In this document: positions 3,494 to 61,037 of the stretch, piece by piece | How the letters are laid out: every line of letters starts with the position of its first letter | Position numbering within the stretch: the first letter of the stretch is position 1 | Assembly: GCA_017643165.1 (NCBI GenBank) | Contig: JAEPNY010000001.1 | Coordinates: 868,001-932,000 of the forward strand | Direction of reading: 5' to 3' | DNA: 64,000 nucleotides | Source of the DNA: Psychroserpens sp. | GTDB lineage: Bacteria > Bacteroidota > Bacteroidia > Flavobacteriales > Flavobacteriaceae | The notes under the pieces: model-generated | Told to the model about the DNA's origin: nothing | Database searches by the model: none | What the model saw: the letters and a program-made list of their open reading frames with translations, nothing else | Made by a program: the position numbers and the translations under genes

Positions 3494-4012
3494 TTAATCT
3501 ATTGCATGTATATCTTCACTTCGAAGTGTGTCTCTCATGAAATGGTGTAGTTGATGCATTTCATCATGTCCCGCTTTTTTTCCTAATCGACCACCAAAAT
3601 AGAGGACAAACCAGAAAATAACCATCATTAAAGTGAGAAAGACTTGTATGACATAGCGTTCTCCTAATGACCAGTTGACATAAGCCCAAATACCAAAACC
3701 TATAAACAATCCTGCTACGACAAAATGCAAGAACATGAATAGTGTCCAAACGGTTGGGTTCGGTCCGAATAAACCATAAATCGTACTGGAAGGTCCTGTT
3801 TCGTCCTTATTGATCTCTAAATGTAACTGCGGCGACCAAAAGTGTTGTTTGGCTTTTGGGATCTTAATAAATACATGATCATCAATTCGAATCACTACAA
3901 AGTCAGATTGTGCTTTTTTTGTAGCTTCAAAAAGTCCCAATAGATATTCATTATCATGATTTACACTGAATTTAAATCGCGGTCTTAATACAACTTCGTT
4001 AGATAATGACAT
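3494..4012 (-). CDS. uncharacterised two-helix membrane protein
   Basis: 172 aa. A soluble N-terminal half (about 1-95) is followed by two predicted transmembrane helices (about 96-121 and 127-150) and a His-rich tail (HDEMHQLHHFMRD). No signal peptide or known catalytic motif is visible. It lies convergent to era (21 nt gap) and divergent from der. No family was recognised. The well-formed helices and good coding length make it a real gene. Confidence 0.7.
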   Translation of the reverse strand: MSLSNEVVLRPRFKFSVNHDNEYLLGLFEATKKAQSDFVVIRIDDHVFIKIPKAKQHFWSPQLHLEINKDETGPSSTIYGLFGPNPTVWTLFMFLHFVVAGLFIGFGIWAYVNWSLGERYVIQVFLTLMMVIFWFVLYFGGRLGKKAGHDEMHQLHHFMRDTLRSEDIHAID

Positions 4013-4111
4013 GGCACTTTGAATTGATGCTTTAAATTACTATTTTTTATTAAAAAATTGGAATCCATAAATCTTTAACTTAAAAATCGCTTAGCATCAG
4101 TACTTATTTAG

Positions 4112-4119
4112 TATTTTTG
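4112..4119 (+). promoter_or_regulatory. -7 box (TATTTTTG) upstream of der
   Basis: A perfect TAnnTTTG match 28 nt before the der ATG at 4148, in the divergent spacer. No convincing -33 TTG was found at the expected distance. Confidence 0.5.
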
Positions 4120-4147
4120 CCCACTATTTCAGAGGAAATTAGAAGTT

Positions 4148-5458
4148 ATGAGTAATATAGTTGCCATAGTAGGACGACCTAATGTAGGAAAGTCTACCTT
4201 TTTTAATCGCTTAATCCAGCGACGTGAAGCTATCGTTGACGCAGTTAGTGGTGTGACACGCGATAGACATTATGGAAAAACAGATTGGAATGGTCGTGAG
4301 TTTTCACTTATCGATACAGGTGGTTATGTACTTGGCAGTGACGATGAGTTTGAGGCTGAAATTGATAAGCAGGTTGAATTGGCGATTGACGAAGCCGATG
4401 CGATTATTTTTATGGTCGATGTGGAAACAGGTGTAACTGGAATGGACGAAGATGTAGCCGAATTACTTCGCAAAGTAGATAAACCTGTGTTTTTAGTTGT
4501 CAACAAAGTAGATAATAACAAACGCGCCGAAGATGCCGTAGAATTCTATGCACTCGGTCTGGGTGAGTATTACACAATTGCAAGTATAAATGGTAGCGGA
4601 ACTGGAGATTTGTTAGATGCTGTGGTTGCTGCCTTACCAGAGAAGGATGAAGCTGAAGTAGAAGTAGAGGAGTTACCAAGATTTGCAGTGGTTGGGCGAC
4701 CAAATGCCGGAAAGTCATCATTCATAAATGCATTAATTGGTGAGGATCGCTATATCGTTACAGATATTGCAGGTACAACTCGCGATGCCATTGATACAAA
4801 ATACAATAGATTCGGATTTGAATTCAATTTGGTGGACACGGCAGGAATACGCCGAAAATCGAAAGTTAAGGAAGATCTTGAGTTTTATTCGGTGATGCGA
4901 AGCATACGAGCAATTGAACATTGTGATGTTTGTTTATTAGTATTAGATGCGACGCGAGGGTTTGACGGTCAAGTTCAAAATATCTTTTGGTTAGCAGAAC
5001 GCAATCGTAAGGGAGTTGTAATCCTAGTTAATAAATGGGATTTGGTAGAAAAGGATAATCATACGACCAAAGAATTTGAAAAACGCATTCGTAAAGAGAT
5101 CGAACCATTCACTGATGTTCCAATCGTTTTTATATCGGTACTGAACAAGCAGCGAATTTACAAAGCTATAGAAACTGCGGTTGAGGTTTATAAAAACCGT
5201 TCGAAGAAAGTTAAAACCAGTAAGCTCAATGAAATTCTTCTACCAATAATAGAGAATTATCCACCGCCAGCGTATAAAGGTAAATTTGTGAAGATCAAAT
5301 ATATCATGCAGTTACCAACTCCGCAACCACAATTTGCATTCTTCTGTAATTTACCACAGTACGTACGTGAACCCTATAAACGATTTTTAGAAAACACGCT
5401 AAGAGAGCATTTCGACTTTCATGGCGTTCCAGTTAGTGTGTATATGCGTAAAAAGTAA
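4148..5458 (+). CDS. der: GTPase Der (EngA), 50S ribosome assembly
   Basis: 436 aa, typical for Der. It holds two consecutive GTPase domains: G1 GRPNVGKS (8-15), DTGG, NKVD in the first, and G1 GRPNAGKS (about 181-188), DTAG, NKWD in the second. A KH-like C-terminal domain follows (about 350-436). Der acts in late 50S subunit assembly. The first domain has DTGG where the second has DTAG, as is normal in the family. The T9SS gene starts 12 nt downstream. Confidence 0.97.
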
Positions 5459-5470
5459 TTCCTAGAGCTG

Positions 5471-7900
5471 ATGAAAAGATTGGTATTCATATTTGTTGTG
5501 TTTCGAATTGGATTCCAATTGTCATATGCTCAAAATACACCGCCGGAAATTGTTGTAGATGGACTTCAGGAATATTGCGCCGGAATTCCAATGCCTATTG
5601 TTACGGATGTCGCGATTACAGATGCCGACCCGAGCGACACGACTTTAAATGTCGTTTTTATTCAAATTTCTGGAGGATTTACGGTTAATCAAGATCTTCT
5701 TGTTCTCAATGGAACACATCCTAATATAACTGCTTCATGGAATGCGACCGAAGGGAAGCTAACACTTCAAGGTCCTGCTACTTTTGATGAATTTGAAGAC
5801 GCCATAAGAAATGTCACTTTCGAAACTGTTCAGACCAACTTTACTGAGGATAAAGATTTTTCAATTAATCTAGGTGACGCTAATTTCTTACCAGCTACGG
5901 GTCATTACTACCTATATGTGGCAAGTGATGGTATTACTTGGAATTCTGCTCGTGAAACTTCAGAAAATACATTCTATTTCGGATTGCAAGGATATCTTGC
6001 GACAATCACTTCTGAAGAAGAGGCGCAATTTGCAGGAGAACAGAGCCCAGGAACGGGATGGATTGGCGCCAGCGACTTTGGTAGTGAAGGAACATGGCGT
6101 TGGGTAACGGGACCTGAAGAGAACTTGGTGTTTTGGGAAGGCGGTGTAAATGGGGCGCCAGTAGCAGGTCAATTTTCATTTTGGAATGCAGGAGAACCCA
6201 ATAATTTTGGAGATGAGGATTTTGCACATATAACCGATCCGAGTATTGGTAATTTGGGTTCATGGAATGATCTGCCAAATGCTGGCGACCCAGAAGGACC
6301 TGCAAGTCCGTATTATCCTCGCGGGTATTTTGTTGAATTTGGAGGCATGCCTGGTGACCCAGAAATTAATTTGTCTGCAGGTTCTACAATAATTACACCT
6401 AAGCTTACCTTCGAATCAGACGTTGCATGTGCTGATGGATTAACTGCATTAACCGTTGCCTCTAATACACCAACTGTACTATGGTTTGAATCTATAGATT
6501 CTTCAGAGATTATAAATTCTGGCACCTCTTATGAAGTGTCATTGACTGAAAACACAACCTTTTGGATCATGCCGCTTTTTGATGGATGTACAGAGAGTTC
6601 TCGAATTCCGTTTGCAGTGACTTATTTGCCTAGTCCGTCAACTCAGGATATAACTATTGAGCAATGTGATGATGAGATTCCAGATGGACTCTCAATATTT
6701 AATCTTGAAATTTATGAAGCTGCTGTTGCTGATGGTATCGAATCTAATAGGCTAGTTACCTTTTACGAATCAAGCGATTTGAGTGATCCAATCGAAGGCG
6801 ATCTTTATAACAACATTACAAATCCTCAAGTCATTTATGCTCAAGTCGTTGACACCACGACAGGTTGCTCGAGTACTGCAGAAGTGACCTTAGAGGTAGC
6901 ATCTATGGTGTTAGGAACATTCACATTGGAAGATTGTGATACAACAGGAAACACCGGACGTATAATATGGGATTTATCTCAAGCAATACCGATTATTTTA
7001 GAAGGCTTACCGCCGTTTTATGACGTATCATTTTATGCGTCTTATCAAGATGCTCTGTTAAAAGATAATGCGCTGGTCAATAATTTTTTTAATCCTGAAC
7101 CTTATTTCTACACGATTTATTATCGTGTTGAAGAGTATGGAGATTGCTTCGCTATAGGAGAATTGAATCTAGTCGTTAAACCATTACCGAATGCACTAAA
7201 TGAGGAAACCCTATTGTATTGTTTAAATTCATTTCCTGAAACGATCACGTTAAGCGGAGGAATAATTGATGATGTCCCAAATAATTTTTATTACAATTGG
7301 TCTACAGGAGAAACTACAATTGATATTGAAATAAATGAAATTGGTGTTTATACAGTAGATATTTCATTTGTTGATGGGTGTTCTCGAACCAAAACCATTA
7401 CGGTTATTCCATCTAATGTAGCAACAATTGAAAGTTTCGAAGTTGATGACCTATCTGAAAATAACGTCATTACTGTTTTGGTTTCTGGAGAAGGTGTCTA
7501 TGAATATGCTTTAGATAATATTGAAGGACCATATCAGGAATCAAATGTATTTGAAAATGTGCCTTCTGGAATTTATACTATTTATATTCGTGATATTAAA
7601 AATGACTGCGGAATATCAAGTGATCAATTCTCGGTTATAGGATACCCTAAGTTTTTCACCCCGAATGGTGATGGAACTAATGACTTTTGGCAATTAAAAG
7701 GAATATCTGATCAATTTCAACCGAATTCTGAGATTTTCATTTTTGATCGCTATGGAAAGTTACTTTACACGCTTAATTCACCGTTTGATCAATGGGATGG
7801 GACTTTCAATGGTCAGCCATTACCAACTTCTGATTATTGGTTTTCTGCCACTTTACAGGATGGCCGATCGTTTCGAGGATATTTTACGTTGAAACGCTAG
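5471..7900 (+). CDS. T9SS type B cargo protein with C-type lectin-like domain
   Basis: 809 aa. The signal peptide runs to about residue 20 (...QLSYAQ). Residues about 135-285 are C-type lectin-like: LATITSEEEAQF, TGWIGASD, FWNAGEPNN (an EPN sugar-binding motif) and FAHI...WNDLP. The middle is made of Cys-containing beta-rich repeats of the kind common in flavobacterial adhesins. The end (about 725-809) is a gliding-motility-associated C-terminal domain: FFTPNGDGTNDFW, IFDRYGKLLY, WDGTFNGQPLPTSDYWF and a final GYFTLKR, the signal for type IX secretion and cell-surface attachment. The likely role is surface glycan binding; the ligand is unknown. It starts 12 nt after der but is unrelated in function. 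Confidence 0.88.
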   Translation: MKRLVFIFVVFRIGFQLSYAQNTPPEIVVDGLQEYCAGIPMPIVTDVAITDADPSDTTLNVVFIQISGGFTVNQDLLVLNGTHPNITASWNATEGKLTLQGPATFDEFEDAIRNVTFETVQTNFTEDKDFSINLGDANFLPATGHYYLYVASDGITWNSARETSENTFYFGLQGYLATITSEEEAQFAGEQSPGTGWIGASDFGSEGTWRWVTGPEENLVFWEGGVNGAPVAGQFSFWNAGEPNNFGDEDFAHITDPSIGNLGSWNDLPNAGDPEGPASPYYPRGYFVEFGGMPGDPEINLSAGSTIITPKLTFESDVACADGLTALTVASNTPTVLWFESIDSSEIINSGTSYEVSLTENTTFWIMPLFDGCTESSRIPFAVTYLPSPSTQDITIEQCDDEIPDGLSIFNLEIYEAAVADGIESNRLVTFYESSDLSDPIEGDLYNNITNPQVIYAQVVDTTTGCSSTAEVTLEVASMVLGTFTLEDCDTTGNTGRIIWDLSQAIPIILEGLPPFYDVSFYASYQDALLKDNALVNNFFNPEPYFYTIYYRVEEYGDCFAIGELNLVVKPLPNALNEETLLYCLNSFPETITLSGGIIDDVPNNFYYNWSTGETTIDIEINEIGVYTVDISFVDGCSRTKTITVIPSNVATIESFEVDDLSENNVITVLVSGEGVYEYALDNIEGPYQESNVFENVPSGIYTIYIRDIKNDCGISSDQFSVIGYPKFFTPNGDGTNDFWQLKGISDQFQPNSEIFIFDRYGKLLYTLNSPFDQWDGTFNGQPLPTSDYWFSATLQDGRSFRGYFTLKR

Positions 7901-57876: not shown

Positions 57877-57905
57877 TAAAAAAAGCGACGCTATTAAGCG
57901 TCGCT
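57877..57905 (-). terminator. terminator at the end of the SPFH small-gene operon
   Basis: A perfect 9-bp stem (AGCGACGCT / AGCGTCGCT) with a 4-nt loop that contains part of the stop codon, followed on the reverse strand by seven Ts. The hairpin overlaps the last codons of the Arc-type gene. Confidence 0.88.
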
Positions 57906-58073
57906 GTCATCTGACTTTTTCGGTTTGGGTTGTCGGTTTTTTTCTTTAAGGTATTGCATAAGCATCCACTCAATTTGACCATTGGTACTTCGGAATTCGT
58001 CTGACGCCCATTTTTCAATGGCTTTCAACATATCCTCATTGATTCGCAAGGCGAAAGCTTTCTTCTTCGACAT
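57894..58073 (-). CDS. Arc/ribbon-helix-helix family DNA-binding protein
   Basis: 59 aa. The N-terminal MSKKKAFALRINEDMLKAIE and KWASDEFRSTNGQIEWMLMQYL form a strand plus two helices of the ribbon-helix-helix fold (FALRI as the DNA-contacting strand), followed by a charged tail. It binds DNA as a dimer in related proteins. Its ATG shares the A of the preceding stop (TAATG), and the gene ends in the terminator. Being last in an SPFH operon, it may regulate that operon; no operator was found. Confidence 0.85.
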   Translation of the reverse strand: MSKKKAFALRINEDMLKAIEKWASDEFRSTNGQIEWMLMQYLKEKNRQPKPKKSDDSDA

Positions 58074-58997: not shown

Positions 58998-59858
58998 TTA
59001 ATGGCTTAATGTTCCAGTATTTACAACTGGTGATGCATCTTTATCACCACATAGTATTACCATAAGATTACTCACCATAGCGGCTTTTCGTTCTTCATCT
59101 AAGTCGACAATAGATTTTTTGCCTAATTCTTCAAGTGCCATTTCAACCATACTAACCGCACCTTCCACAATTTTATGACGTGCAGCCACTATAGCAGTTG
59201 CTTGTTGACGTTTGAGCATAGCGTTAGCAATTTCTTGTGCATAAGCCAAGTAACCTATACGAGCTTCAAGGACTTCAATACCCGCAATAGCTAATCGTTC
59301 TTCGATTTCTTTTTCGAGGGCATTACTCACTTCGTTCACACTTGAACGTAAGGTAATATCTTCAGCTTTTCCTTCATCTGCAAAGTTATCATATGGATAC
59401 ATACTAGCTAACTTACGAACAGCAGCATCGGTTTGAACACGAACGAAATTTTCATAGATATCCACATCAAAAGCGGCTTTATAGGTGTTTTCAACGCGCC
59501 AAACTAAGATCGTACTGATCATTACTGGATTTCCCAGTTTATCATTCACCTTTAAACGCTCACTGTCGAAGTTCCTTGCTCTTAATGATATTTTCTTCTT
59601 TGTGTAAAATGGGTTTACCCAATAGAAACCATTCTTTTTTACCGTTCCTATATATTTTCCGAATAATAGCAGTACTCGCGAGCCATTCGGTTGAACCATA
59701 ATGAACCCTGGTGCAATCAAAATTGCAAGTGGTATGAATAATAGATATTCAGGATTTTCCGTAACGATGGCAGCTATAATACTTCCAAAGAATAATACTA
59801 GGAAAACAAATAGCATTAAATAACCATTAGCAGGGACAATAGTTTTTTCTTCTTTCAT
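58998..59858 (-). CDS. SPFH/band-7 membrane protein
   Basis: 286 aa. Two hydrophobic segments (about 11-31 and 35-55) precede the SPFH domain (about 65-215), with WVNPFYTKKKISLRARNFDSE and IEVLEARIGYLAYAQEIA, then a helical region (RQQATAIVAARHKIVEGAVSMVEMAL). SPFH proteins form microdomains in membranes. It leads an operon with four very small genes and DUF1648, and has a clear promoter. Confidence 0.92.
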   Translation of the reverse strand: MKEEKTIVPANGYLMLFVFLVLFFGSIIAAIVTENPEYLLFIPLAILIAPGFIMVQPNGSRVLLLFGKYIGTVKKNGFYWVNPFYTKKKISLRARNFDSERLKVNDKLGNPVMISTILVWRVENTYKAAFDVDIYENFVRVQTDAAVRKLASMYPYDNFADEGKAEDITLRSSVNEVSNALEKEIEERLAIAGIEVLEARIGYLAYAQEIANAMLKRQQATAIVAARHKIVEGAVSMVEMALEELGKKSIVDLDEERKAAMVSNLMVILCGDKDASPVVNTGTLSH

Positions 59859-59905
59859 TGTTTTGACATTTAGTTAAATAAATCAATATGATATTATTTT
59901 GATAT

Positions 59906-59936
59906 CAAATATACATCAAACAATTTTATCTTCCAA
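59906..59936 (-). promoter_or_regulatory. promoter of the SPFH operon
   Basis: On the reverse strand TTG (59936-59934), 20 nt, then a perfect TATATTTG (59913-59906). The -33 element ends about 10 bp from the -24 element of the divergent sigma-54 promoter. Confidence 0.75.
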
Positions 59937-59944
59937 ATCAAGTT

Positions 59945-59961
59945 TGGCACGCCGTTTGCTA
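59945..59961 (+). promoter_or_regulatory. sigma-54 (RpoN) -24/-12 promoter
   Basis: TTGGCACGCCGTTTGCT has the invariant GG (59947-59948) and GC (59959-59960) with ten bases between them, and the fuller TGGCAC-N5-TTGC pattern. It is in a non-coding spacer and points away from the SPFH gene. No gene lies downstream in this direction. RpoN promoters need an enhancer-binding activator, not encoded here. Confidence 0.8.
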
Positions 59962-59971
59962 TTATAAAAGT

Positions 59972-60085
59972 GTAAATGCTTATGACGAGGTTCGTCGAGG
60001 AGTGATTACCTCACGTAACGGAGTAACATTTAACATTTGGTTGGTTAGTTAGTAAAAACGCATCTCATTTTTGAGATGCGTTTTT
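59972..60085 (+). ncRNA. candidate sigma-54-dependent small RNA (about 114 nt)
   Basis: From a start expected about 12 nt after the -12 GC, to a perfect terminator at 60054-60085. The only ATG reading frame (59983) is 7 codons. The RNA could form a GACGA/TCGTC hairpin (59985-59997), then has an open stretch with repeated AACATTT and GGTT, and ends in the terminator stem. Sigma-54-driven sRNAs with their own terminator are known in other bacteria. Expression is inferred, not seen. Confidence 0.6.
60054..60085. terminator. bidirectional terminator
   Basis: A perfect 14-bp stem (60054-60067 with 60072-60085), TTTT loop, with an A5 5' arm and T5 3' arm. It ends the candidate sRNA forward and the alpha/beta hydrolase transcript in reverse (26 nt after its stop). 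Confidence 0.9.
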
Positions 60086-60110
60086 AGTTGTATCTAACTG
60101 ACCTTATTCT

Positions 60111-61037
60111 TTAGTCTTTAATAAATGTTGTTATACTCGTTACGAGTTCTTCGGAAATGTTGCGAAATGCTTCGTTATACGATTTTGAATTCTCCAATTG
60201 ACCGCCTTCAATTATAAATAAAACATGATTCATGTTTTCTATGAGTACCAATTCTGCAGATTGTGATGCACTTTTAAGGCGTTTCGCTTCATCAACAGAT
60301 ACCTGTAGGTCTTTTGTACCGTTTACAATAAGCGTTGGAACTTCTAATTCTTTGAGCAACGATTGCGGATCGTATTGCATCCAATTTCTAATAAACGGTT
60401 GAAGATCTGCTCTAAAGATTGAAGTTAAGGCTTGAGGATAATCCAAGACAGTTTGACCTTCTTTCATTTGAGTGAAGGCTTTTTTAGTAGGTTCTACTAA
60501 TGAAGGATCCATAGTTCCTACTTGGTCAATAATGACACCATCAATAGTTTGTCCAGCACCAGCTAATGATATAAAACCATCAGCACGATCTTTTGTAGCC
60601 AGCATACCTACAAGACTACCTTGACTATGGCCAATGACATAAACCTTAGTATAAGTGCCATCATTTTTAAAATAATCTACGACTGAAATGGCATCATCTA
60701 TAAAATCATCAAATGTCATATTAGGATCCACATTGTTCATTCTTATTTGTTTCACTATGCGTTTATCATACCTGAATGTTGCAATCCCAGCTTCTGATAA
60801 GCTCTCGGCTAACTTTTTTAATGCATTATTCTGCATGAAGTTTTGGTTTCCATTTCGGTCTGTAGGACCAGATCCAGCAATTATGATTGCTAATTCGCTA
60901 TCTTCACTAGAAACAGGTGTTAATAGCGTACCATCAATGTGTTTATTAATGGCAATATCTTGACTAGCATATTTTTCATTTTGAGCTGGAATCGCTAAAC
61001 AGCATAAGAAGGCAAAACAACAAAGAAGATCTTTCAT
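60111..61037 (-). CDS. secreted alpha/beta hydrolase
   Basis: 308 aa. The signal peptide ends near IPAQ (about 19). The nucleophile elbow is GHSQGS (about 157-162), the acid is probably in VNGTKDLQVS, and the His is in IENMNHVLF. AGSGPTDRNGNQNF near the start is the oxyanion/early loop typical of this group. The likely activity is an esterase or peptidase on a small substrate. A large regulatory-looking spacer lies upstream. Confidence 0.88.
   Translation of the reverse strand: MKDLLCCFAFLCCLAIPAQNEKYASQDIAINKHIDGTLLTPVSSEDSELAIIIAGSGPTDRNGNQNFMQNNALKKLAESLSEAGIATFRYDKRIVKQIRMNNVDPNMTFDDFIDDAISVVDYFKNDGTYTKVYVIGHSQGSLVGMLATKDRADGFISLAGAGQTIDGVIIDQVGTMDPSLVEPTKKAFTQMKEGQTVLDYPQALTSIFRADLQPFIRNWMQYDPQSLLKELEVPTLIVNGTKDLQVSVDEAKRLKSASQSAELVLIENMNHVLFIIEGGQLENSKSYNEAFRNISEELVTSITTFIKD

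Follow-up and report, generated by a model that had tools for sequence, protein, structure and literature searches.

The locus considered here raises the question of whether a sigma-54-type promoter that leads into no gene gives rise to a small RNA (sRNA) of its own. A first-pass annotation had proposed such a candidate sigma-54 sRNA gene within the window, by which the whole 64,000-nucleotide stretch of Psychroserpens sp. DNA under analysis is meant, and on the evidence of sequence the proposal is supported: both the sRNA gene and the sigma-54 promoter in front of it are very probably real. Going beyond that proposal, the predicted RNA is a member of a widespread and sometimes multi-copy RNA family, and its 3' box is common to other predicted sigma-54 transcripts. 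The conserved gene, its promoter, its fold, the shared box and the link of this box to sigma-54 sites are read from the DNA itself. The interpretation that is moderately favored here is that of a stand-alone, trans-acting sigma-54 sRNA, which would pair through its box with translation starts and take part in an envelope/protein-quality regulon.

The promoter element and the unit behind it

The -24/-12 element TTTGGCACGCCGTTTGCT lies at 59943-59960 (+) and shows the full GG-N10-GC arrangement (letters TTTGGCAC GCCG TTTGCT), with GG at 59946-59947 and GC at 59958-59959. Transcription is predicted to start at about 59971, a position inferred as lying approximately 12 nt past the -12 GC, which yields an sRNA of about 115 nt (59971-60086, +) and agrees with the length of about 114 nt estimated earlier. 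Conservation resumes at TGTAA (59971-59975), and model R1, described below, matches 59970-60085. The unit is closed by an intrinsic terminator at 60054-60085 (+), which consists of a 14-bp stem with arms AAAAACGCATCTCA (60054-60067) and TGAGATGCGTTTTT (60072-60085), a TTTT loop and a U-run; all 14 of the 14 pairs are formed, as had been noted before, and the stem displays compensatory changes with 100% of cells paired. Given its position, this terminator can double as that of the convergent hydrolase gene on the minus strand.

The spacer is free of genes, as annotated at first pass, both flanking genes lying outside it. The divergent neighbour at 58998-59858 (-) encodes an SPFH/Band 7 protein and has, by reading, its own promoter TATATTTG on the minus strand, while the convergent neighbour at 60111-61037 (-) is annotated as an alpha/beta hydrolase gene; the sRNA unit stands alone because its flanks are a divergent and a convergent gene. 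Upstream of the SPFH gene, just downstream of the minus-strand TATATTTG promoter element, a highly conserved near-palindrome TGATAT-N7-ATATCA was observed (59885-59925 in plus-strand coordinates), which looks like a repressor site of the SPFH operon. The same operon also encodes an Arc-like protein (57894-58073), whose Pfam score is slightly under the cut-off.

The pattern TTGGCACGNNNNTTGCT has a single perfect match in the window and likewise a single one in the whole genome. When it was loosened to three mismatches, seven matches were obtained in the window against 12.7 expected from the shuffle control, hence no excess, and with up to two mismatches the genome gave 51 matches compared with 28 for the reversed pattern. 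The promoter and its unit are placed beyond chance by their conservation across species, which supports the first-pass view that the arrangement is not easily explained by coincidence.

Conservation in the genus and the family

A search by DNA similarity recovered the element from all 23 genomes of the genus. Relatives that keep the terminator and lose the -24/-12 bases were looked for, and TTTGGCA[C/T] with the downstream TTTG is kept in 23/23, comprising 20 aligned genomes, whose sequences were not selected for the promoter, and three that were read singly (in G013 the contig breaks off past the box and truncates the copy). About ten bases, the initiation spacer at 59961-59970 (+), vary between the -12 and the start in the genus alignment, and the RNA is conserved again thereafter. 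Such a succession of block, gap and block is the look expected of a promoter followed by its predicted RNA.

A scan of named genomes for the promoter together with the box returned at least 119 stretches, nearly all from Flavobacteriaceae among the 80 of 119 that were listed. Three of them (L089, L175 and L200) are unlike the family, look false and were dropped; the remaining 116 hold 125 copies among the matches listed. Tandem copies were seen in several stretches, with four in L146, three each in L164 and L191, and two each in L101 and L155, and Kordia algicida possesses five copies. A match to the Flavo-1 RNA (RF01705) was also observed at L106 5271-5359, about 4 kb from one of the Kordia algicida copies. 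In the flanking DNA examined, the SPFH gene is found on the opposite strand near 63 of the 128 scanned copies and the hydrolase gene near 78, and neither neighbour was seen at 40, three of which are the false positives. The base after TTG varies across the family, being C in 33 of the 125 copies, and the full GC is therefore not kept everywhere.

Since the scan of named genomes requires the promoter, a promoter-blind model of the RNA alone, termed R1, was built from a family set of 51 sequences, namely 50 of the 64 non-redundant named copies and the window, the rest having been excluded for ragged 3' ends or as outliers. A search of 249 Flavobacteriaceae genomes with R1 (E <= 2.5e-9) led to 83 matches in 74 genomes among the matches listed. 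The strict site TTGGCA[C/T]-N5-TTG lies upstream of 77 of these 83 (50 of the 51 training sequences of R1 being promoter-bearing copies, plus the window), as opposed to 0/83 when the same windows are read on the opposite strand. In the six exceptions, two have ATGGCAC-N5-TTG and one has TTCGCAC-N5-TTG, one base off, and three (the third copy in L308, L338 and L342) are devoid of a recognisable sigma-54 site. Downstream windows of equal size, read for 78 of the 83, contain seven sites, six of which lead into another box and thus into a further copy. Both the RNA and its promoter are accordingly conserved when the spacer is compared across the Flavobacteriaceae.

Among weaker R1 matches the site was found at 4 of 16. 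In 198 genomes of the phylum, the genome under study and other family members included, the best match outside the family has an E-value of 3.3e-7. The specificity of R1 is weak below about 55 bits, and other 3' ends as well as another RNA appear among the matches at around E 1e-8 to 1e-7, so that the 229 of 249 genomes with a match at E <= 0.01 do not amount to a family count.

These results bear on the possibility that the -24/-12 match is incidental, the RNA being made by a housekeeping sigma factor or the spacer serving as the hydrolase terminator only. This is very improbable. The terminator can serve the hydrolase gene too, TTTG occurs in both elements, and three of the 83 listed family matches are without a recognisable site; however, the contrast of 77 sites upstream with none on the opposite strand holds also where the neighbours differ, and the variable stretch from -12 to +1 is enclosed by two conserved blocks. 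The terminator-only spacer was rejected on the same ground.

No known Rfam family accounts for the RNA, and this candidate was rejected, as the window, eight family loci and six other box loci are uncovered by any. In the whole window, the Rfam gathering score was reached by tRNA only, and a search of 59850-60150 at E <= 5 returned no Qrr, the best match, Atu_C9, reaching 20.3 bits where its gathering score is 40.

Fold of the RNA and the box shared with other predicted sigma-54 units

The predicted sRNA is arranged as a covarying stem, the conserved box UUUGGUUGGUUAG and then the terminator. The 5' part (59974-60031, +) forms an irregular stem of AAATG/CATTT, TTAT/GTAA and GTT/AAC, closed by GAGG/CCTC and marked by covariation, whose apical hairpin GAGG-AGTGATTA-CCTC at 59997-60012 (+) carries a loop that resembles the G(U/A)GGUUAC loops of other genera. 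In alignment A1, which comprises 24 sequences, 22 from the genus and two from other genera, two-sided changes occur at 13 of the 30 pairs of P1-P2-P3-terminator, ten in the 5' stem set and three in the terminator, as compared with 2.4 in shuffles and at most five in slid controls, the structure having been partly derived from the same sequences. The fold is claimed for A1 only because for three of six mixed-genera groups (59, 16 and 5 sequences) hardly any consensus fold was obtained with RNAalifold, which is probably due to badly aligning 5' halves and ragged ends. None of 200 dinucleotide shuffles folds as well as the window RNA (z -5.3), and much of this difference is given by the terminator alone. 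In the genus consensus folds and in the centroid structure of the window RNA, the box UUUGGUUGGUUAGUUAG is unpaired between stem and terminator, and it is partly paired in the minimum-energy fold.

Could the transcript instead be a messenger for a very short peptide? The only ATG frame within the unit, ATGACGAGGTTCGTCGAGGAGTGA, has seven codons, as recorded at first pass, and similar M-x-M-L-x-E-E frames exist in several members of the genus. Against this, a deletion shifts the frame in L025, the sequence changes follow base pairs, and an open reading frame conserved among the 125 copies was not found: the longest ATG frame has a median of 8 aa, 37 copies are without a complete ATG frame, and longest-frame peptides recur at most three times, single methionines aside. 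The peptide-coding transcript was rejected, the frame being kept neither in the genus alignment nor among the 125 copies, and it is the least probable of all the explanations weighed here.

The box itself, TTTGGTTGGTTAGTTAG at 60036-60052 (+), is the candidate pairing segment, in which GGTTGGTTA is nearly invariant in the genus; it is nearly invariant in the family set too, partly by selection, since the box had served to find the named copies. With up to three mismatches allowed, the genome under study contains 25 matches to the 17-nt box compared with 29 for the reversed pattern. The box is thus not common in the genome, and it is its placement rather than its count that stands out. The exact TTTGGTTGGTTA is present in four of the 25 matches, and three of these four are 3' ends of units that all (3/3) start with a strict sigma-54 site; the fourth is on the antisense strand and covers the start region of a gene for an ECF sigma factor, the start codon of which was assigned by reading.

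Besides the sRNA, the units in question are two genes that bear the box after the stop codon and a perfect TTGGCAC-N5-TTG starting 49 bases before the ATG. One encodes a lipoprotein-like protein of 318 aa without a Pfam match (L080 1305-2261), and the other an exported-looking protein of 405 aa (L076 4844-6061). For the 318-aa gene, box and site were found together in 7/7 genomes with upstream DNA (L080, L036, L037, L038, L039, L040 and L044), one of the seven sites having T as the last base of TTGGCAC, and stretches L041 and L042 are too short to show the site; all 23 genomes of the genus contain TTTGGTTGGTTATTTAG, the form that the box takes in this gene. For the 405-aa gene the combination holds in 9/9, i.e. 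in eight relatives and the genome under study, after ten stretches had been gathered by the box, two of which represent other loci. At other 3' ends where the box is less perfect (L043/L054, L053, L061, L034 and L035), no sigma-54 site was found in the stretch examined.

At the 3' end of the 405-aa gene (L076 6071-6140; L437, L438, L439, L440, L441, L442, L444 and L446), a strongly conserved hairpin comes after the box; it reads GTCCCATAAG...CTTATGGGAC in most, contains the loop part TATGCCTCAAAGCAC and is without a long U-run. This end is possibly a processed 3' RNA. As the same box precedes a strong hairpin, the mRNA 3' ends of the two genes with sigma-54 sites probably act together with the sRNA, and the shared end segment hints at a linked RNA control circuit.

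Several further observations were made at box loci. L076 harbors tandem genes for exported-looking proteins (3955-4641 and 4844-6061), weakly similar and each with its own sigma-54 site, for which no Pfam or NCBIfam match was found. A distinct conserved RNA occurs at L343 (= L419), L346, L348, L349, L351, L352, L421 and L427, in most of which a hairpin AAGGGGTGGTTCCCTT is succeeded by TTGGTTTTTCATAATTTAAAG, TTTGGTTGGTTATTTAG (TTTGGTTGGTTAGTAAG in L349) and a terminator; AAAGT..GTTAAA lies upstream in most and no sigma-54 site was found, so that the box is the same and the promoter is different. In L053 (G000:C1:258256, -), TTTAGTTGGTTAGATAG, which recurs in 16 of 23 genus genomes, stands before a strong terminator-like hairpin.

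With regard to what the box may bind, its complement was compared at gene starts. Nine of the 25 own-genome box matches lie antisense at gene starts (among them L068, which is antisense to a 3' end) against three of 29 for the reversed pattern, and the first loci of the 23-genome counts gave 9/29 against 2/30, two of the nine being one site. The raw counts of ACTAACCAAC-N0..25-ATG in the 23 genomes, 135 against 132 for the reversed word, show no excess, which speaks against many conserved targets. Considering distinct sites, ACTAACCAAC precedes the ATG at gene starts in 19 of 72 cases compared with 5 of 57 for the reversed word (one-sided Fisher p 0.009, uncorrected for repeated looks). The 72 are the 76 distinct main sites from 81 loci minus four flagged as antisense to the sRNA, and the 57 are the distinct control sites from 59 loci, with many control rows falling outside the sample; beyond the first loci, the main sites include 51 hand-picked ones (the sRNA itself being passed over) and ten more, and the control 29 more. 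Outside long ORFs the shares at gene starts are equal, 19/39 against 5/10, so that the difference may stem from 5'-leader composition, and conserved leaders recur in the control set as well.

The individual candidates comprise the ECF sigma factor gene, where a perfect 14-nt complement of the box covers the start region, and a LuxR-type response regulator gene with a site in G000 and G006 and, by reading of L445, in G001, for which the duplex predicted in the genome under study reaches -24.4 kcal/mol compared with -19.4 for the reversed box. A small membrane protein gene has a similar site in two genomes (L055 and L378). For L472, another own-genome candidate, the reversed box pairs better than the box (-16.7 against -14.5 kcal/mol). 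Taken as a whole, the data are suggestive of pairing between the box and translation starts of target mRNAs, and the chances that the box is an antisense segment are judged to be even.

Alternatively, the sRNA and its promoter may be real while UUUGGUUGGUUAG is a landing site for an RNA-binding protein, which the RNA would titrate or by which it would be protected, or a 3'-end stability signal of sigma-54 transcripts. This is regarded as rather unlikely. The box is immediately followed by the terminal hairpin, both in the sRNA and in the two mRNA 3' ends, it is more conserved than the 5' half (partly through selection, the named copies having been found by the box), and the complementary sites are without a clear excess over composition; furthermore, RbpB of Bacteroides is reported to bind single-stranded parts of an sRNA family (PMC11697453). 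On the other hand, an RRM_1 protein is absent from the genome under study at E <= 0.001 (0 matches), hence the known Bacteroidota RNA-binding candidate, an RbpB-type partner, was not found there, and the ECF sigma factor gene carries the perfect 14-nt complement at its start.

Sigma-54 machinery, proposed role and comparison with known systems

All 57 relatives examined carry the rpoN gene. Even a genome of 0.3 Mb (G048), which belongs to the same order, has retained it, and retention of rpoN is known for some insect symbionts. Only two strong sigma-54 activators are encoded in the genome under study; the first, with a Fis-type HTH and no receiver, lies between a miaB-like gene (named by reading) and the LptE gene, and the second carries a receiver domain and adjoins a PPK2-like gene (named by reading). 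A common activator-binding site was not found upstream of the promoters, the best inverted repeat being TGATAT-N7-ATATCA in 14 of 65 non-redundant upstream regions, and the frequent upstream inverted repeats seem to belong to the SPFH neighbour gene.

With respect to function, the sigma-54 motif of F. psychrophilum is described as preceding groESL, dnaK, grpE, lon, htpG, clpB, skp and gliding genes, in addition to one putative sRNA, Rfp36 (PMC9723704). A role in envelope and protein quality is the best guess because the motif precedes those genes, and a one-mismatch sigma-54 site, TTGGCACGATATTTTCT, was located before the OmpH/Skp gene in the genome under study. Resting on another species and one Skp-type gene here, the assignment of the sRNA to an envelope/protein-quality stress regulon is considered reasonably probable.

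For the trans-acting sRNA favored above, we infer transcription, stress activation, pairing and repression as follows. The sigma-54 RNA polymerase would transcribe the gene after activation by one of the two activators, giving an RNA of about 115 nt with a 5' stem-loop, a mostly unpaired UUUGGUUGGUUAGUUAG and an intrinsic terminator at its end. The box would then pair in trans with C/A-rich complements around the translation starts of selected mRNAs for regulators and envelope proteins, and whenever envelope or protein-folding stress elicits a sigma-54 response, this pairing would reduce their translation. The two mRNA 3' ends of sigma-54-site genes, which carry the same box before a strong hairpin, would probably act alongside.

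The accessible part of a paper on sigma-54 regulons makes no mention of sRNA or small RNA (PMC12316311), and candidate sRNAs of F. columnare, known here by description, are without Rfam matches in an account whose accessible text leaves sigma-54/rpoN unmentioned (PMC5395568). Within the listed open-licence literature on flavobacterial or Bacteroidota sRNA and sigma-54 (subscription papers and preprints being outside the scope), no description of the sRNA family was found. Little is known of small-RNA control in Bacteroidota, most studies having dealt with gut Bacteroides. The gain offered here is a defined and widespread candidate sRNA family in a large marine group, characterized by a clear promoter class and by conservation of both the fold and the candidate pairing box.

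The Qrr sRNAs of Vibrio are sigma-54-dependent. The first-pass annotation had drawn an analogy to them, which stands for the promoter class and for the multiple copies but not for homology; no Rfam Qrr match was found. Qrr shares with the present family the sigma-54 promoter, the sRNA nature and several copies per genome, whereas it works with LuxO, Hfq and quorum sensing (PMC2680268), and no sequence relation is claimed. Compared by description only, Rfp36 of F. psychrophilum, also a member of the Flavobacteriaceae, is alike in being a putative independent RNA with a sigma-54-type (SM4) -24/-12 promoter (PMC9723704). FopS/GibS of Bacteroides likewise form a paralogous sRNA family with a conserved single-stranded segment followed by an intrinsic terminator, and one member is made from an mRNA 3' end; in contrast, FopS has housekeeping-type promoters and binds the RRM protein RbpB (PMC11697453), and the genome under study is without an RRM_1 match.

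A more far-reaching idea, which is tentative and held to be rather less than evenly probable, is that of a sigma-54 'RNA regulon' in Flavobacteriaceae, in which an antisense module with the common box UUUUGGUUGGUUAG would shut down regulators and envelope proteins when sigma-54 fires. If true, sigma-54 transcripts of both kinds, the sRNA with its multiple copies and the exported-protein mRNAs with their 3' ends, would carry the box before a terminal hairpin and release one and the same module, whose targets would be envelope proteins and regulators (an ECF sigma factor and a LuxR-type response regulator), in bacteria in which no RRM-type protein was found. The shared box on the 3' ends of sigma-54 genes also provides a testable idea of how one sigma factor could both repress and activate. 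In enterobacteria, MicA, RybB and MicL constitute the sRNA arm of the sigma-E envelope regulon, and one of them is derived from an mRNA 3' end. They differ from the proposed regulon in being driven by sigma-E, in their sequences and in the phylum of their hosts, and they resemble it as an alternative-sigma envelope regulon that combines an sRNA arm with a member derived from an mRNA 3' end.
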